From NCBI GenBank assembly GCA_009602725.1, contig WELB01000163.1, positions 173,131 through 198,958 on the forward strand: a DNA stretch of 25,828 nucleotides, read 5' to 3'. Source of the stretch: Spirogloea muscicola. Lineage: Eukaryota; Streptophyta; Zygnematophyceae; Spirogloeales; Spirogloeaceae. This document shows, piece after piece, positions 1,887 to 20,846 of the stretch. The translations under genes and the position numbers were made by a program. The first letter of the stretch is position 1, and each line of letters opens with the position of its first letter. The notes beneath the pieces were generated by a model. It worked only from the letters and a program-made list of their open reading frames with translations. It was not told the origin of the DNA and ran no database searches.

Positions 1887-4846
1887 TCACTTGATGTCCA
1901 CAATCTTAATGACTGCAGCATTACCAATGCGGTGCAAGGCAACTATGGAGTCTCCGATCTTGCACAAACCCCTGTCTTTGGCGAAGGCAAGAGCAGCATT
2001 TAGTATCTCGTCCGTAGTATCGGAGTCTGTGGCTTTTGCAGCTCCCTCAGCTAGGAGAGGGATAAGCCCTCTGCAGATAAGACTGCACAGTAACGCCCAG
2101 AAGCCTTCCTCAGATCAGAGGAAGTACCCCTCAGTTGACCATTTGCCTAGCATGACCAACTTACTCCATGTGCTGCTGCTTCACTAGCTAGATGCATTAT
2201 GCTTGGATGCTAAGTGCATTCCAACGGATTTGTACATCACAGTCATGCATTTGAAAGGACAACCTGTGACGTGCCGGTGACTCCTCAGAGCAGGACCAAG
2301 TCAGGTTGTCAGTAGTCAGCACTGGTACAGCCACAGAGAGAATTGGTATGGAAGGCCTGTATTTAGCCACCAGCTTGGCGGTGCTGCGATGTCACAGAAG
2401 AACAACATGAGAAGTCCATCAGCTCTTCATTCATGGGGATTCTAATGAAGTACCCATGTTTGACAGATGAGCACACATGTATGCAACTTCAATCACTCAA
2501 AGCATTTCCCCTCCTGGTGTCGCAGTAGTGCTGCAAGGCAGAGGCAAAGCAGAGCATACCTTCCACCTCTGGTGAGGACGACGATCAGTGCAGCCTGGAC
2601 TTTGTTAGCTGTCCGTACTGCAGAAGATGCCAGACTCTCCAATGGGCTCATGGGCAATGGCGTCTCCCTTATAATGGACTGCATCACAATAGTCCGACAT
2701 TGTCAGGCATGGCTTCTCTCTGTCAAGCATTGGCTTCCTAATATTGCAAGGCAAGGCAGTACACTTATTCATTTATTGCACTGTAAGCCACTGATGTCAT
2801 AATAGTTATTGAACGTCCTTACAGCACATGCCTGCAAGTCTTCCTGCATGTGGACATGTCAATTACACTGGACAATTCAGACATCCCAAAGTGCATGTAT
2901 GACAAAAACAACTGCACCAGGTAAATGACTGCAGACCTTGAAAATTGCATGGTAATCTAAGGAAGCCTCTGCTTCCCTGCAGATACGCGACATGACTGTT
3001 ACAGCCTCCTCTGGGTATGCACCAGCCGCAGTCTCGCCACTAAGCATAACACAATCAGTGCCATCCAGGACAGCGTTAGCGACATCTGTTGCCTCAGCGC
3101 GTGTAGGCCTTGGAGACTTGATCATCGATTCCAACATTTGAGTTGCAGTAACCACTGGCTTCCCTGCCAATCAGAGTAGCAGCAAACATGACTGTATCAG
3201 CCTCTCATGGGTTTGACAAAGCCTTGTCAGTGAGCACGAACCACGGATTACATCTGGAATCGTCCTTTCAGTAGCAGAGATCGCAGGCAAGCCAATACAG
3301 CATCTATAAGGGCCCTTATTTTCTGCATTTTTCTTGAGGGCTTGCAAAGCGCAATTATGTCCACATTTTGATCGGAGCAAAATTGACACAATAGTACCTG
3401 CAGCGTTACATTTGTGAATCATCATTTTCTGTGCTAGAAAAATCTTCTCTGTGGGGATTTCCATCCCCAGATCTCCACGGGCAACCATAATCCCGTCTGT
3501 CTCTGCCAGGATATCATCAAAATTGACTAGCCCCTCCTGATTCTCTACCTGAGCATCATTACACGAAGTCCCTTAGCAAGGACAAAAGGCCGACCTGAGC
3601 AGGACGTACATCATACAGGCAAGGTACTGGTAAGAAGCACACTCTTGTACCCTTGAACAAGCTTGGCCTACACACTTGCAGTCTTGGTCTCTAGCTTCTG
3701 CGCTGATGCACTGACACAACTTCATGCAGGTCCATCTCCGGGCTGACTTCAGTCTATTACCTTGGAGACAATTTGAATTGTCCTGGCATGAGGGCCAAGA
3801 AGCTTGCGAATGTTGACAAGATCAGATCCCTTTCTTACAAAGGAAGCCGCAATGAAATCAATCTTGTTAGGGACTCCCCACTCCAGAATGTCATTCTCGT
3901 CCTTCTCAGTGACAGTGGGCAAGTCCACAATGACTCCAGGTAGATTGACGTTTTTCCGCTCTCCTAGCATCGCTGTATTCTCGCACTTACATCGTACTGT
4001 GCCTTTCTCCTCATCACAGGCTAAGACCCTGAGAGTGAGACTTCCGTCTGCACACAATATCACACTTCCTGGCTGAACATCTGATGGGAGCCGCTTGTAG
4101 CTCATGGAGATCAGCTCATCATCACCCTGAATGCTGTAATCTGTGGTAATGGTGATCTCCTGATTGCGTTGAAGCTGGATGGGCTTCCCATCCTTCAGCA
4201 TTCCCGTTCGTATTTCCGGGCCCTGCGTGCACACAAGGAGCACTTTCGGAAGTTACTATTTGCCCAGCTTAATAGCCTTGGCTGGAAGAATGTGTGCTAC
4301 ACAGGCTGTGCATCCTTGATTACCCTAATTATCTCAAAGCAGCAGTGACGGATTCTCCACCACCTGTATATTCTCATGCAACAGCATCTGTTTGTGCTGA
4401 ATGCAGGTGCATGCAGAATCAACTGCATTGCTTCGTAAGTGATGTGAAATTTCACAACCAGGCAACTGGAAGGCGAACAGCTCGCTGTAGCTTATGAGAA
4501 GATCAGCGTCGATGCATTCTTAAGATCACACTATGATCTATAGAAGGGCGAGCAGCTGAGACATGAGTGCCCTGGGTCTAAGCTTTCGCACCTTGGTATC
4601 AAGCAGTACAGCGCACATAATCTGTGTGGACATCATCGCCTGGCGGAGAGCGTCGAGCGTCTCCTGGTGGTACTCGTGCGAGCCGTGCGAGAAGTTGAAG
4701 CGAGCCACATTCATTCCGGCGCGCAAGAGCTTCTCGAGGATGGGAACATCGCGGGACTTGGGCCCGAGGGTGCAGATGATCTTGGTCTTGGCGACTGCCT
4801 GCGGTGAGCCGTGGAGGATGCTGTCGATGTCGATGTTGGCCGCCAT
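1887..4846 (-). CDS. PK: Pyruvate kinase, cytosolic type
   Basis: Converts phosphoenolpyruvate and ADP to pyruvate and ATP, the last step of glycolysis. Seven exons on the minus strand: 4846-4592, 4222-3761, 3548-3398, 3163-2937, 2678-2560, 2383-2264, 2070-1887. All introns are GT-AG, all phases close, and the product is 505 residues, close to plant cytosolic enzymes. Visible landmarks: [13 protein letters not shown] near residue 20, [13 protein letters not shown] near 45, LLDTKGPEIRTG at the exon 1/2 join, the catalytic-lysine segment [12 protein letters not shown], then VENQEG (240-245) and [12 protein letters not shown] (260-271) with the metal-binding acidic residues, and [13 protein letters not shown]. 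The C-terminal domain contains [16 protein letters not shown]. The ATG at 4846 is the first in frame. The open frame continues upstream (to about 4954) but without an ATG, so a transit peptide is not supported. Confidence 0.96.
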
Positions 4847-11769: not shown

Positions 11770-11992
11770 CGAGAGAAAGAGAGAAGGCGCGCGGGGCGCA
11801 TGATAAGTAAACGGGTCAATCTGCTGTAGATTATGTACGCCTTAAGACTTGCGTGCCTTTGTACTTGGCCTTGTGGCCCTTCGTTTAATTCAAATTCACG
11901 GGGGAAAAAGGTTAGAAAGATGAAAGGGAATTCAAGCCAATACATTGTTCAGGCAGAGTCTAGTGCACACTAAACAAGGCTACATAATACGG
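11770..11992 (+). repeat. Interleaved family-2 box and family-1 tail
   Basis: In order: GAAGGCGCGCGGGGCGCATG (11783-11802); a subtype A family-1 tail (about 11810-11906: ACGGGTCAATCTGCTGTAG, GTGCCTTTGTACTTGG, GGCCTTGTGGCC, AATTCACG); then a family-2 UTR segment, AATTCAAGCCAATACATTG and TTCAGGCAGAGTCTAG, up to ACATAATACGG. The middle piece appears inserted into, or joined between, parts of a family-2 tail. Confidence 0.6.
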
Positions 11993-12009
11993 AGAAAGAA
12001 GAGAAGAAG

Positions 12010-13745
12010 CTTCCCACCCGGTTTCTTCCCAGCCCTTTTATCCCTTGCTCGTACACGAACTGAGCACAGTGGGCCTGCGGGTCTGCCCCACCAAGAACGT
12101 GGCATGGTCACCACACGGCCTTCCCACCAACCTCCAACTCCCACCAGGCTGCCAGACCCCTGCCAATGGGCTGGCCGTTCTAAAAGTTCCCCTTGGCACT
12201 CCATCTCACGTTGCGGAGGACTTACGTGAACGTCTGCAGCAACACCTTGCCCCCCTTCCCTCCCTTCCTCTCCTCGGAGATCCGCAACTGGCGCTGGCCA
12301 TCCTTACTCGCTGCATTGGTCAACGAGCTGGCTACCTACAGCGAACAGTCGCCCCAACGGACATGGTGGGCGAGCTGTACAAGGAGTTCGACACCTCCCT
12401 CCTGCAAACCCTGGCATCCCTGATTCAACACCCATCCTTCCCCTCACCTTCATCCTCCCTGCAGGCATCCCTTCCCACACGGATGGGCGGCCTTGGCTGC
12501 CGGTCACTTGAACAGACGGCACAGGCAGCCTTTCTCGGTTGCTGGCACCACGTTGCCTCCTTTCTTCCCTTGCGCTTCCCTTGCCTGGCCGGCCCTGCAG
12601 CCGAGGTGGAGGAAGGCTCCTTGGCATTCCAAGTGCAATTGAAGAGCATCCGGGAGTTAGCACTCTGCTCCTTCCCCTCCCTACAACCCCTCCTCACCCC
12701 CTTCTCAGCGCTTGCTCAAGCACCAGACAAAGCGGCACAGGCCAGACTCGTTGCTGCAGTTGAGGACGAGCGTCGCAAGGCGTTGAGGACGATGCCGGAT
12801 ATCAAGACCAAACCAAGGAGTCTGGCACGTCTCACATCGCTCGTAACGCCTGGGGCAATGGATTGGCTCACCACACACGCAATCCACAACGCTTTCAAAA
12901 TCAGCCCTGAAGCATTCTGGACGCTTCTCCAGCTGTTCCTGGGCCTGCCCCCGACCTGCCTACTTGGAGTAACTCAGTGTGAGTGTGGCTTCCGTGCGGA
13001 GGGCGGAGACCTAGCCACCCACATGCTGCGGTGTCTCACTGGCCCTGAGGTGGTGGGCGTCCACAATCTCCTACGAGACGCCCTGGCGGGCTTGATGCGC
13101 GACGCCGGCTACCGCGCCATTGTGGAAGTAAGCAATGTAATGCCCATCACCACGGATTCCCAGGGTCGCCATCACCGTCGCACCCTGGACATTGTGGGTG
13201 TACAACCTGGCGGAGGCCCACGAGCCTTGGTGGATGTGGTGGTGACCGAGGCATACAAGAGTTCGGCTTCCACACACATTGCTGGCCACGCAGTGGGAGG
13301 TGCTGAGCAGAGAAAGCTCCGACACTACTCTGACTACCCCCGCAGCGACCACCTTCTCCCGGCCGCAATCGACACTTTCGGCTGCTTGGGTCCTCGCTTC
13401 CATACCCTACTTGAGAACATAGCGAGTCTGGGATATGCACGATGCGAGGATATGCTTCCTGCCCAGATGGGTATGCCGGCTGCCTACCTGTCATTTTTGC
13501 GACGTCGAGTGTCAGCTTGTCTGCAGCGAGCTCAGGCTCATGCGTTGCATCAGAAAGCTGGTCGAGCCTTGGCTGGTAGTTCGAGAGCTTGTCGATTGCC
13601 ATCCGGTATTCGAGCATCAGTTAGCGACCTCTATGTGCTGACTCGTGGTTACTGAGCGGGTCGGCTTAGCAGCAGGTGACGTGCATTTGTCAATGTGCTT
13701 GCCTTTGTACTTGGCCACACATGGCCTCCCCATCTCATAATACAC
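12010..13745 (+). mobile_element. LINE family-1, longest copy (5'-truncated)
   Basis: A non-LTR retrotransposon fragment. It keeps the last part of the reverse transcriptase, a zinc-knuckle-like motif, a nuclease-like core, the LTRGY terminus and a 3' UTR with GTGCTTGCCTTTGTACTTGG, the hairpin GGCCACACATGGCC and the terminus AATACACACGC. The N-terminal half, including the catalytic FADD/YADD box, is absent. The 5' edge near 12010 follows a family-2 UTR segment. At the 3' side a family-2 tail in opposite orientation begins about 25 bases later. Confidence 0.85.
12045..13655 (+). CDS. Partial LINE ORF: RT C-terminus, zinc motif, nuclease-like domain
   Basis: 536 open codons, with no ATG at the start because the element is truncated. 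Residues 4-30 (ELSTVGLRVCPTKNVAW) match the segment after the RT catalytic box; MGGLGCRSLEQ near 147 is the usual GGLG region of LINE RTs. CECGFRAEGGDLATHMLRC at 312-330 is a C-x-C-x11-H-x3-C knuckle. RRTLDIVGVQPGGGPRALVD and VVVTEAYK at about 378-405 resemble the D...D-x-K layout of restriction-like endonucleases, then EQRKLRHYSDYP. It ends SDLYVLTRGY. A related domain order is known downstream of RT in some algal elements such as Dualen, which has two endonucleases; assignment to that clade is inference. It is the only long intact copy here and may be recent, but cannot be active without the RT core. Confidence 0.8.
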   Translation: MLVHELSTVGLRVCPTKNVAWSPHGLPTNLQLPPGCQTPANGLAVLKVPLGTPSHVAEDLRERLQQHLAPLPSLPLLGDPQLALAILTRCIGQRAGYLQRTVAPTDMVGELYKEFDTSLLQTLASLIQHPSFPSPSSSLQASLPTRMGGLGCRSLEQTAQAAFLGCWHHVASFLPLRFPCLAGPAAEVEEGSLAFQVQLKSIRELALCSFPSLQPLLTPFSALAQAPDKAAQARLVAAVEDERRKALRTMPDIKTKPRSLARLTSLVTPGAMDWLTTHAIHNAFKISPEAFWTLLQLFLGLPPTCLLGVTQCECGFRAEGGDLATHMLRCLTGPEVVGVHNLLRDALAGLMRDAGYRAIVEVSNVMPITTDSQGRHHRRTLDIVGVQPGGGPRALVDVVVTEAYKSSASTHIAGHAVGGAEQRKLRHYSDYPRSDHLLPAAIDTFGCLGPRFHTLLENIASLGYARCEDMLPAQMGMPAAYLSFLRRRVSACLQRAQAHALHQKAGRALAGSSRACRLPSGIRASVSDLYVLTRGY

Positions 13746-14620: not shown

Positions 14621-14982
14621 GAGGTGCACAGAAGAAGTGGATCTCCCAATGGGGCCAAGGGCGCTGGACAGACCGCTTTCCTTCGCACGAACGGGGGGGG
14701 CGCGGTGGGGGGTCGCCTCGCCCGGGGGCACAGCGGGGGAGCGGGGGGTACGAAGGCGCCCGCCACGTGGCACGCCGAGGAGGAGCGAGGCGGCCGTTAC
14801 CCCGACGCATGCTCGTGGATCTGCCCCAGCGCCCCCCCCGACGACCAGGCGGCGCTCGTCCGCGCCCGAGAAGGGGCGGTCGCCCCTCCGACAATTGTTC
14901 GTGATCCGCCCGACGACCGGGGCCACTCGGCCGCCAGGCCGCGGAGGGCCAGCCCGCCCCCCGACGATGTTCGTGATCCNCG
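14621..14982. other. GC-rich region before ZIP, with one N
   Basis: Very GC-rich with G and C homopolymers. Long open frames on both strands reflect the composition: all are Arg, Pro and Ala rich with no recognised domain. GTTCGTGATCC occurs at 14898 and 14969. Position 14980 is N. The ZIP promoter, and perhaps its first codons or a first exon, should be here. Confidence 0.45.
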
Positions 14983-16579
14983 CTGCAGCTGGCCCGCGGC
15001 GCCGTCGCGCACAGCGCCGAGTCCGGCGACGGCGACGGCGGCGGCGGCTCGCACGACCTCCAGCGCACCAGCCTGGTGGTGGCCAAGGTGGCCAGCCTCG
15101 TTATCGTGTTCGCGGCCACGTTCGTGGCGGGCGTGGCGCCCTACTTCGTCCGCCTCAACCACCACGTCCTGGTACTGGGCACCCAGTTCGCCGGCGGCGT
15201 CTTCCTCGCCACCGCGCTCATCCACTACCTCCCCGACTCCTCCGAGACCTTTGAGGACCACGGCGCCGACGGCTACCCCTACGCCTTCATGCTCGCCGTC
15301 GCCGGCTACGCGCTCACCGGCCTCGCCGACGTGCTCATCCAGGCCGTGTACGGCCGCATGCAAGCGCGCGGCCAGGACCCCGATGCCTTGTACGACGCCC
15401 CACCATCCAAGCTACCAGCCGTCGACGGTAAGCTCCAGCTGCCCCATGGTGGCTTCCGTCCTCCAACAGGCGCTTGGTCGATGTAACTGAGCTTTGCAGC
15501 AGCGATAGCTATGCCCCTCTCGCAACTATTGCAATGTTTGTGCATGCACTGACTTAGGTGGGTTTAGGCATGCTGCAGCTGAGTCTGCGATGCAAGCCGC
15601 CGACCAGCCGAAACTGGGCCCCTGCGGCGAGAATTGCATGTGCGAGAACACCGAGCCGACTCTCTGCAAGGTACCGCCTTGCGTTGCTCTTGGTGTTAGT
15701 AAGCCCCACTATCAGCATTCGTGGATGGACGGCTGTGCGTGTTGCATGACAATGGTGCTGTGACTCCGCCTGCAGTGCTCGACTGAGTACCCCGTGGCCA
15801 AGGAGGGCAAGCTCCTCATCCAGGCGTCCGACCACAAGACATCGGTCAGCGATGCCATCCTCCTCATGGCCGCCCTCTGCAGCCACTCCATCTTTGAGGG
15901 CCTCGCGATTGGCATAGCAGGTTGGTCAGCCGCGCCCAAGCCTTGCAGGCTGCTGTCATTACTGTCACCCAGATTCCTTCGTCATTCCCCCCTCCAAGAG
16001 CTACTGCATACTGCAGTCGTGGCTGTGTGAGGCTGTTGCTGTTGAGCAATGCGTAGCTTCAGCCAGCATTTTGGATGCCTCACCTTGACTACAGTCAGGA
16101 CTAGCAGATGCAAGTGTCACCCATGCCTCGACTACTCTAAACAGAGTACTCTGCGCTGACATCCTTGTGTTCTTTGTGGTGCAGAGACGGTGCGACACAC
16201 ATACTATGTGCTGTTCACAGTGTCCCTGCACAAGGTTTTTGCGGCCATGGCCATGGGAATTGCCCTCTTGCGCATCATTCCTGACCGGCCGCTCATCTCC
16301 TGCTGCCTCTACGCATTCATGTTTGCCATCTCCAGTCCCATTGGCGTCGCCATTGGCATCATCATCGATGCGACGACGCAGGGCTCCACGGCAGACTGGG
16401 TGTACGCCATCAGCATGGGCCTGGCCACTGGCGTGTTCATCTTTGTCGCCATCAACCACCTGCTGGTCAAGGGCTACAAGCCACCGTGCAAGATCCGGTC
16501 AGACAGCCCCTTCTTCAAGTGGCTGGCCTTTGCACTCGGCTGCACGCTTATTGCAGTTGTGATGAAGTGGGATTCATGA
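14983..16579 (+). CDS. ZIP-family divalent metal transporter (start uncertain)
   Basis: Membrane transporter of zinc, iron or related divalent metals into the cytosol. Exons: about 14983-15427, 15579-15670, 15776-15920, 16185-16579. All introns are GT-AG and phases close, giving about 358 residues, normal for ZIP. Eight hydrophobic helices fit: [38 protein letters not shown] and [19 protein letters not shown] before the loop; then [13 protein letters not shown] and [16 protein letters not shown], the paired metal-binding helices; then three more, ending AVVMKWDS. The usual His-rich cytosolic loop is replaced by a Cys cluster. The frame has a stop at 14974, and N at 14980 prevents choosing a start. 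CTGCAG just before 14989 could also be an acceptor, so an upstream exon is possible. It is convergent with SPCS2. Confidence 0.9.
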
Positions 16580-16922: not shown

Positions 16923-16955
16923 AAAGTTGATAGCCTCTGAAGGGCTATCAACTTT
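16923..16955. other. Perfect 13-bp hairpin at the SPCS2 stop
   Basis: AAAGTTGATAGCC and GGCTATCAACTTT are exact reverse complements separated by seven bases. The right arm touches the SPCS2 stop codon (16955-16957), so the SPCS2 mRNA would fold this stem at the very start of its 3' UTR. It would also fold in a long ZIP transcript from the other side. Its role is unknown. Confidence 0.85.
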
Positions 16956-18572
16956 CATTTAGATTTGCTTTCATCGTCCTCATAGCTCTTGAGCAAGTCA
17001 TCTACGTCCGACTTGAATATGGATTCTACAAGGATGCCATCGCTCGTGAACCTGCAACACCACATGGTTGTAAGACTGGGTTACTAACAGGCTACTTCAA
17101 TGACACCTGCAACTATAGCATGGGCCACAATCTGCACTTGTGGTGCTTCAAGGAGGGGTGCATGCTTCAATTGCCGGGGAAAGAGCAGCCAAGGTGCCCA
17201 AAGCTTCCCAGTGTGAGGAGATGGTAAAGGAGACAGTACCAAGTGGTCACACTCTTGGTGAACTCCACAGGAGGGTGGGCGCCCAGGGACTTAGGGTCTG
17301 AACTGGCAATCCGCAGAGTGTACAGGTCCGAGAAGCGCGGGAGCTTTGACGACACTGCCACTCCAGTTGATGTTATAGAGCCCTGCGTGCAAGGAGAGAC
17401 AACTAATAATCTCAAGCAGTTCTCGTACCAATGTGGTGGACTCGCAACTTGGCTGCAAGGGCTCTCGCGTACTCACCTTGGGGGGATGGCTGAACAGGAT
17501 GTGATTCCTCTCCTTCAGGATTGCTAGGAGCTGGAGCACAATGTTCAGGAGCACGTACGTGCTGCTGGTGCAGTCAAGGCTGCTCTGCTTGCAACTGCGA
17601 CTTCAAGCTGCAAACCTCGGGCAGACTGATACAGGCCAGGCAGAGCGGCTGCAGCGTGACTCCGACTTGCTACCCATGAGCAGGCTTACTGCGGAAGCAC
17701 GGCTGCTGTTCCGCTGGCGCAAGACCAATAAAGGCCTCCACAATCTGAGGTTGACAAGAGGCCTGGCTGAGGAGAGGAGCGGACGCTGCGAGGGGTTTCA
17801 GCATGAATAGGCTGCTAGTCCATAAGTGCAAAAATGAGTTACCGAGACAGAGCAGCATGAGGCCCCAAGAAAGGAGGCCCATGACGTGATACCCAGACCT
17901 CGGGCCCGAGCATTCGTACTTCAAGCGTGCCGATCACGGACGCCAGTCCAGCATAATTACATCAGTTTAGGGTTAGGGTTTAAGGGGGTTAGGGTTTAGG
18001 GTATAGGGTTCAGGGTCAGCCATCAGGGTGGATCTGGGCGGAGGAGGATATAGGGAGACGCAGGCGATGAGGACGGGCCGGTTGTCGGGGAACTTGACGG
18101 GGTAGAGCTGCGCGGCGAGCGGCACGGCGCAGGCGAGCAGGCCCAAGCCCAGCTTGACGTTGCTCATCATGTTGTCCTCCTCGTAACCCCGCCCCACCAC
18201 CACCTGCGCCGGCGCCGGGAGCTGCTGGCTGAGACCAGGCCGGGCGCAGCAGCGCACGGGATGGGCGTAGCGGCTTATGGCTGGCCCCGCTGCGCCTGGA
18301 TGGCCTTCACAGCCGCCCTTTTGCAACAAGAGCAGCCGCATTCTTCAATGAGCCAGACGGCCGCTCAGGCAAGTCCCGCGGGATCAAGGAAACGAGGAGC
18401 AGAAGAAGTGAAGGCGGAGCGTTGGGACCTCGGAGGCGACGTCGTCCAGGTGGCGCTTTACGGCGTAGGGGTCGCTGAGCGCCACGCCCTTGGGCTTGGC
18501 CGCTGCCGCCGGGTCGCCGCCGCCACCGCCGCCGCCGCCGCCAAGCCACCGGGGCAGCCAGCTCGGCAGCAT
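16955..18572 (-). CDS. SPCS2: Signal peptidase complex subunit 2 (SPC25)
   Basis: Accessory subunit of the ER signal peptidase, which removes signal peptides at the Sec61 translocon. Exons on the minus strand: 18572-18429, 18203-18052, 17558-17477, 17382-17240, 17051-16955; 205 residues against about 192 in plants. Landmarks: glycine run at 11-19, DPYAVKRHLDDVASE (34-48), VVVGRGYEEDNMMSNVKLGL (49-68), two helices (about 64-82 and 91-111) separated by YPVKFPDNR, LKERNHILFSHPPKGSITST, VSSKLPRFSDLYTL, FTKSVTTWFTSDGILVES and an acidic-lysine tail, DDESKSK. The second helix is interrupted by the intron 18051-17559, which fits AT-AC splicing. ATG 18572 is chosen because it gives the plant-like N-terminus; the poly-Gly is an oddity of a GCC run. 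Confidence 0.94.
17559..18051 (-). other. Probable U12-type AT-AC intron of SPCS2
   Basis: On the minus strand the donor reads ATATCCTCC after CCT, matching the minor-spliceosome consensus ATATCCTTY at eight of nine positions. CCTTGAC, the core of the U12 branch site, lies about 15 bases before the terminal CAC. Removing 18051-17559 joins CT to GTACGTG and restores VLIACVSLYVLLNIVLQ, which aligns without gaps with the plant SPC25 second helix. No GT-AG pair tried gives as good a join. Confidence 0.75.
17966..18015 (+). repeat. Degenerate telomere-like tract inside an intron
   Basis: About six units of TTTAGGG-like sequence with variants (TTAGGG, TTTAAGGGGG, TATAGGG, TTCAGGG) lie in the AT-AC intron of SPCS2, close to its donor. 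Such interstitial tracts are known as relics of break repair or telomere insertion. Confidence 0.85.
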
Positions 18573-19757: not shown

Positions 19758-20038
19758 GTGGTGCTTAATGGGTACACCATCACCGTCAACTCCTCTTCGC
19801 TCCCGCGCCACCTAGTCCGCACGGCTTGCCAAGCGGAGGCGCATCGATAGCCCTGCGGCAGGCGGCGGCGGCGGCTGCGGACCTCATCTGGGCGCGGGTC
19901 GAGCTCCATTAGCGCATCACCGTACCGGCTCTCCCTTAGCGCCTCTGCCCGCTTGGCAGCAGGGTTAGACGGGCCGGCTGTAAGGGGCCGCGCAGGCAGC
20001 AGCTGGGCCGCGGCGCGCATCCCCGCCCGTTGCGCGCC

Positions 20039-20846
20039 ATGTTCCTGCGGCGGCTGGCGGGCCCGCTGCTGGCGGCCGCCGGCGGCCGCCTGAAGGAGAC
20101 GACGGGCATCGCGGGGCTGGAGGTGGTGCCGGACGCACGCGAGAAGCTCATCGCGCTCTACCGCCAGACGCTGGCAGCGGTGGAGGCCATCCCGGCGGCG
20201 GCGGCGTACCGCCGCAACGTGGAGAAGATCGCGCAGCACCGCCTGCGCGTCTGCGAGGAGGAGCCCGACTGGGAGGGCATCGAGCGCCGCATCGCCTGCG
20301 GCCAGGTGGAGGAGCTCCTCGCGCAGGCCACGGACGAGCTTCAGCTCATCCCCAAGATGGCCGGTGAGCCCTCCACAGCCCTGGCGGCGGTGTCGAGCCA
20401 TGGTGCGGCGAGCCAACGTGCTCCGAACGTCTTGACGCACCTGTCCAGACAGCTGAGCTGGCCCTTGGACCACCACAGCCCCGGGCGAGCAAACGATGCA
20501 AGTTGCAGCACTTGAGAGAGGAAATGCCTCCTGACATCATCCAGGGTTGAACCCACGCTACAAGGAATGCGTACACGTGTGTGGCCTATGGAGACTGGCT
20601 TGGAAAGTTGAGGCCTAGCGCAGGTCCCATTGCTCGGCATGAAACCAGGGCAACACTGCCGGGGTCACCATCTGCACCGGGTCTTGACTTGTGACCAAGT
20701 GCCGCAACTTGCTATCTGATGACGTTGTTCCCTGAGCTGTGCATGCAGAGTGGAAGCCCTGGGAGGTTCCTGAAGGGCACAAGGTTGAGCTGGTGGTGGA
20801 TGACGACCCCGTCCCAGCGCACCTGCCAATCCACAGAAACTCCTAG
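20039..20846 (+). CDS. NDUFA5: Complex I accessory subunit NDUFA5
   Basis: Accessory subunit of mitochondrial NADH:ubiquinone oxidoreductase, in the matrix arm. Exons 20039-20363 and 20749-20846 with a GT-AG intron give 140 residues, a little shorter than plant homologues. Family features: RLKETTGIAGLEVVPDAREK, LIALYRQTLAAVEAIP, VEKIAQHRLRVCEEEPDWEG and IERRIACGQVEELLAQA, then EWKPWEVPEGHKVEL from the second exon and the end PVPAHLPIHRNS. The ATG at 20039 is the first in frame; an in-frame TTG precedes it. The N-terminus MFLRRLAGPLLAAAGGRL is basic and amphipathic, fitting mitochondrial import. It is convergent with GPN2. Confidence 0.95.

Follow-up and report, generated by a model that had tools for sequence, protein, structure and literature searches.

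A probable U12-type AT-AC intron in the SPC25/SPCS2 gene of a streptophyte alga

The SPCS2 locus and the join across its second intron

The window analysed here, a stretch of DNA of 25,828 nt, carries on its minus strand an SPCS2 gene that was modelled with five exons (18572-16955). Exon 1 (18429..18572), exon 2 (18052..18203), exon 3 (17477..17558), exon 4 (17240..17382) and exon 5, which includes the stop codon (16955..17051), join into a single frame of 205 amino acids. The joined protein was assigned to SPC25/SPCS2 by Pfam (PF06703, E 6e-36, 124 bits against a cut-off of 24.3) and it matched the human SPCS2 chain 7p2p with an E value of 3e-14. The genes adjoining SPCS2 encode pyruvate kinase (2877-4252, minus strand), a ZIP transporter (14977-16579, plus strand) and NDUFA5 (19940-20512, plus strand). 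A 555-residue open frame on the plus strand (11988-13655) is partly similar to other frames of the window and looks like a repeat-borne gene; it gave zero Pfam matches. Rfam models produced two matches in the window, both under their gathering scores, and zero matches when run on nine loci.

Intron 2 of SPCS2 (17559..18051, minus strand, 493 nt, phase 2) has AT-AC ends and the signals of a U12-type intron. It opens with the 5' splice site ATATCCTCC (18043..18051), contains the branch site CCTTGAC (17573..17579) with its A at 17574, 15 nt upstream of the 3' end of the intron, and closes on the 3' splice site CAC (17559..17561). Its borders read exon ...GTCTCCCT / intron ATATCCTCC...CCTTGACTGCACCAGCAGCAC / exon GTACGTGCTCC..., so that exon 2 ends in VLIACVS(L) and exon 3 starts with (L)YVLLNIVLQLL. 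When compared to the donor consensus RTATCCTT, the intron matches over ATATCCT, has C instead of T at +8 and carries no T at +9. When compared to the branch consensus TTCCTTRAY, CCTTGAC matches and the two leading T are replaced, by AG in the window copy of the gene and by TG in two other genomic copies.

In order to evaluate this join, all GT-AG, GC-AG and AT-AC pairs with an intron start at 18110-17991 and an end at 17620-17521 were scanned, and those that keep the frame and are free of stops were tabulated. Only the AT-AC pair 18051-17559 yields ...VLIACVSLYVLLN... with zero residues gained or lost. The sequence-only reading had proposed a U12-type AT-AC intron at exactly these coordinates, with the same donor, CCTTGAC and CAC, and its proposal is borne out by the scan. 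The GTCTCC donor at 18059, which it had named as an alternative, pairs with three AGs in the scan, each of them gaining or losing residues.

The scan also bears on the idea that an intron of the major spliceosome (U2-type), bounded by GT-AG or GC-AG, lies nearby and that the AT-AC signals are due to chance. GT and GC sites do occur in the exon end, AG sites are found near the 3' end and many of their joins keep the frame; however, all those tabulated gain or lose residues at the second membrane helix. If a single donor and a single acceptor position are fixed, finding ATATCCT at the one and an AC end with a well-placed CCTTRAC at the other has a joint chance of about 3e-8, a rough figure since the loci counted overlap and contain the introns themselves. 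When position is left free, random sequences of the size of the window contain on average 0.64 cases in which CCTTRAC and AC follow ATATCC within 2 kb (42 of 100 sequences have one or more, with a maximum of five), and the window itself holds six such donor-branch pairs, one of which alone joins recognisable exons. Chance pairs of this kind, which a U2-type reading would invoke, are thus not rare by themselves, and the weight for the SPCS2 intron lies in the exact join and in its conservation in three gene copies.

Conservation of the intron in three gene copies

SPCS2 is present in three genomic copies, on contigs C163, C52 and C10, where 15/15 matches fall. The intron ends are kept in all three, and the donor ATATCCTCCTCCGC, the branch site CCTTGAC and the terminal CAGCAC are identical across them; the invariant part comprises the first 14 intron bases, the branch site and the AC end. 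The introns measure 493, 497 and 492 nt and are about 86% identical in pairwise comparison, and the exon columns that flank them are 95-96% identical in all three copies. Columns identical in every copy amount to 15/16 at the 5' end of the intron, 23/24 at its 3' end and 70% in between. The ends are not the sole conserved parts, because two internal stretches are fully identical over at least 22 columns (11/491 windows).

These comparisons support the AT-AC call made from the window alone. The fact that the AT-AC signals stayed unchanged in three copies while the intron body diverged speaks, together with the residues gained or lost at every other join, against a U2-type GT-AG or GC-AG intron, which we consider very unlikely. 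The remaining three introns of SPCS2 are GT-AG in 9/9 cases (three introns in three copies), as had been claimed for the 16 other introns modelled in the main genes, three of which are covered here. Intron 1 (18428-18204) has an unusual donor, GTCCC, that is present in all three copies. Within the U12-type intron, 7.3 copies of a telomere-like TTTAGGG repeat were found at 17965-18016; they probably predate the SPCS2 copies, because both other copies contain degenerate counterparts.

The same copies are informative on whether the gene is a dead relic whose intron was formerly spliced. The sequence-only reading had allowed for a machinery that was recently lost, and the C52 copy, which has an N in exon 1, was modelled without its start. 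Against this, the window and C10 copies retain open frames and splice signals, and the snRNA genes described below are conserved, which leaves a relic hardly credible.

Minor snRNA genes and placement of the alga

Rfam models of the minor snRNAs were searched over the whole genome (153 Mb, 471 contigs) with curated cut-offs. Three U12 loci (80-81 bits, cut-off 53), four U11 loci (46-60 bits, cut-off 39) and three U6atac loci (83-85.5 bits, cut-off 33) were detected. Fourteen control genomes gave zero U11, U12 or U6atac matches, which says little since the named ones are all prokaryotes. All U12 copies retain GAGUAAGGAAAA, the segment that pairs with the branch site, and AAAGGG is kept in 3/4 U11 loci. 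The RNA bodies of U11, U12 and U6atac are near-invariant between copies and their flanks diverge. Upstream of 9/10 snRNA loci an ATCCCA/TATCCC element is found at -68 to -77, and the same nine loci have a box near -31 that reads TATATA for U12, CATAAG or CATAAA for U11 and CATAGC, CATGAA or CATAAA for U6atac; for U6atac this box is weak, because the boxes were picked with the alignment already in view. Arabidopsis snRNA genes carry USE and TATA box elements, according to an extract of PMC545797. The fourth U11 locus (L007:1501-1639) has AGAGGG in place of AAAGGG; it is without the upstream element and without the -31 box and may be a pseudogene.

The U4atac model gave 0 matches genome-wide at E 0.001 and was also silent in every control genome, and two patterns derived from the way U4atac pairs with U6atac likewise had 0 matches in the genome. 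This search does not show absence, because Arabidopsis U4atac was missed when human U4atac was used as BLAST query and was recovered by motif only (PMC545797, in extract). The U11-48K zinc finger (Pfam zf-U11-48K, a model of 25 residues) had 0 matches in the genome. Of the four minor snRNAs, three thus have genes in this genome. The earlier suggestion that this organism keeps a minor spliceosome is therefore upheld as far as U11, U12 and U6atac are concerned, all over their Rfam cut-offs, and finds no counterpart in the searches for U4atac and the 48K zinc finger.

The snRNA genes also bear on a third reading of the locus. U2-type AT-AC introns exist, with donors like ATAAGT, and the major spliceosome would then splice the SPCS2 intron in spite of its AT-AC ends. 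AT-AC ends also occur outside the U12-type class, as stated in the extracted text of PMC3584512. Nevertheless, the donor ATATCCT, the CCTTGAC branch site near the intron end and the three minor snRNAs in the genome all argue against this reading, which we regard as highly improbable.

The sequence-only reading had compared the organism, a presumed green alga, with chlorophytes such as Chlamydomonas. The 56.9-kb plastid contig (C392), with psaA, psaB, chlI and tilS, does not agree with this setting. Its odpB matches the NCBIfam model of pyruvate dehydrogenase E1 beta with 370.7 bits (cut-off 321). Its matK has the Pfam domains MatK_N and Intron_maturas2 and is flanked on both sides by trnK exons, which differ at 1 and 3 positions from the exon strings searched with. 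PMC1781420 (2007) includes odpB in its list of genes that had not been found in Chlorophyta; PMC4194372, on prasinophytes, also contains the word odpB once. As excerpted, PMC4877394 reports that matK is missing from the trnK intron in Klebsormidiophyceae and Coleochaete and that the trnK intron is missing in Mesotaenium, Cylindrocystis and Zygnema. Together, odpB in the plastid and matK inside a trnK intron indicate that the alga is a streptophyte.

Among the best 60 of 171 chains matched by psaA, 8htu, 9lut and 6l35 came first, above 6ijj, 6zzx and 6igz, and 5l8r scored below 6ijj. We take 8htu and 6l35 to be from moss, 6ijj from Chlamydomonas, 6zzx from Chlorella, 6igz from Bryopsis and 5l8r from pea. 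The ranking is in weak agreement with the streptophyte placement; psaA is a weak marker, because the presumed pea chain scores under the presumed Chlamydomonas chain although moss chains lead. SPCS2, CBP20, U12 and U6atac are present in three copies each and U11 in four, and a genome triplication is stated for Spirogloea muscicola in an extract of PMC7994812. The alga is probably a zygnematophyte, and on these copy numbers Spirogloea muscicola is the tentative first choice.

Taken together, these results argue strongly for a working U12-type AT-AC intron of SPC25/SPCS2, which the minor spliceosome of this streptophyte, probably zygnematophyte, alga very probably removes. From the sequence evidence we infer that the splice sites described above are those used in splicing. 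U11 would bind the SPCS2 donor and pair at +4 to +7, U12 would pair with the CCTTGAC branch site, whose A would bulge from the duplex, and before catalysis U6atac would take the place of U11.

Other U12-type introns, donor position +8 and intron age

CBP20 is present in three copies, on contigs C300, C314 and C68, to which 6/15 matches belong, the remaining 9 being weak. In 3/3 copies (loci L039, L040 and L041) we found an AT-AC intron, 173-180 nt long, whose branch reads CTCCTTGAC; the exons before it measure 139 nt, of which one base belongs to a split codon and 138 precede it, and 34 nt. One CBP20 copy has the donor ATATCTTCT.

A genome-wide search with the pattern GTATCCT...TCCTTRAC...AG in one length window gave 4 matches against 3 for the reversed control, hence no excess. 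L042 and L045 were rejected as U12 introns, the sequence around their branch-like motif being coding, as was L044, which is without clear coding context. L043 is a candidate GT-AG U12 intron with the donor GTATCCTGC. It splits a gene that we take to be ASHR3-like: Pfam detects an NSD-type PHD upstream and SET-like letters can be read by eye downstream. The part that spans the join had zero Pfam or PDB matches.

In 3/3 U6atac copies (L008, L009 and L010) the donor-pairing box reads GAGCCGAGAGAAGG, compared to GAAAGGAGAGAAGG in the Rfam consensus. U6atac positions 14 and 15 pair with donor positions +6 and +5, and in this register U6atac is mismatched to the SPCS2 and CBP20 donors at +6 and +7. 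Donor position +8 is C in SPCS2 (3/3), C in CBP20 (3/3), G in the ASHR3-like gene and T in none. Because +8 is never T, all three U12 introns depart from RTATCCTT, the donor rule as quoted in the available part of PMC2846911. Covariation between donor +8 and U6atac position 12 was considered: the C of SPCS2 and CBP20 fits opposite the changed G, and the G at +8 of the ASHR3-like donor breaks the pattern. Strict covariation is therefore unsupported and a relaxed +8 remains. A shifted U6atac pairing register was weighed on duplex energies and was not adopted. The altered box of U6atac and the relaxed +8, the latter seen in three intron families, are to be taken as a lead and not as a rule. These sequences could tentatively be read as a rewiring, in this lineage, of the second donor check, in which U11 and proteins would do most of the donor selection and U6atac pairing would contribute weakly; we consider this possible and rather unlikely. 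If it were true, scans based on RTATCCTT would miss such introns, and minor introns may in fact exist in some algae said to have none. With the changed box and the relaxed +8, the rules by which the minor spliceosome pairs can be put to the test in nature.

Minor introns of streptophyte algae have been published before, and the SPCS2 intron adds a member to a known kind. They have been reported in Chara braunii and Klebsormidium nitens, which are also streptophyte algae but belong to other classes; the main text of PMC10639083 does not name Mesotaenium, Zygnema, Spirogloea, Chlorokybus or Mesostigma. Chlamydomonas was thus not the organism to compare with, and the intron surprises less, because the alga is a streptophyte and the minor introns of Chara and Klebsormidium are published (PMC10639083, same extract). 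Among the matches listed for the zygnematophyte and Spirogloea literature, no title or abstract deals with minor introns in zygnematophytes. No published link was found between U12 and AT2G39960, presumably the Arabidopsis SPC25 gene.

The sequence-only reading had also missed that human and Trichinella were already known to have a U12-type intron in SPCS2/SPC25. According to extracts of PMC3958305 and PMC11039992, intron 3 of human SPCS2 is U12-type; gene family and intron class are as in the alga. In the SPC25 gene of Trichinella spiralis (EST ES570647.1), an AT-AC U12 intron is flanked by ATC/GTA (PMC2846911, in extract). It shares with the SPCS2 intron of the alga the gene, the AT-AC ends and a U12 donor and branch; unlike the latter, it is 182 nt long, with the donor ATATCCTTTC, which has T at +8/+9, and the branch TTCCTTAAC. 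Read in phase 2, the Trichinella flanks encode Ser-Tyr, which fits CVIS-Y in human and CVSL-Y in the alga, on a phase that was chosen and with three flanking bases per side. On these sequence comparisons, the SPCS2 U12 intron was most likely passed down from an early eukaryote and not acquired in the lineage of the alga; common descent with the animal introns would be the simplest reading, for Trichinella on the strength of six flanking bases.

For CBP20, the exons just before the AT-AC U12 intron of land plants (intron 4) are 139 and 34 nt long (PMC5932401, in extract), and the intron of the alga also follows exons of 139 and 34 nt. The same extract speculates that this intron appeared during land-plant evolution; the alga nevertheless has it, which speaks against the speculated origin. 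The age of both introns is now directly testable: the SPCS2 intron may already have been present in the ancestor shared by animals and plants, and for the CBP20 intron the published speculation of a land-plant origin is contradicted by this alga.
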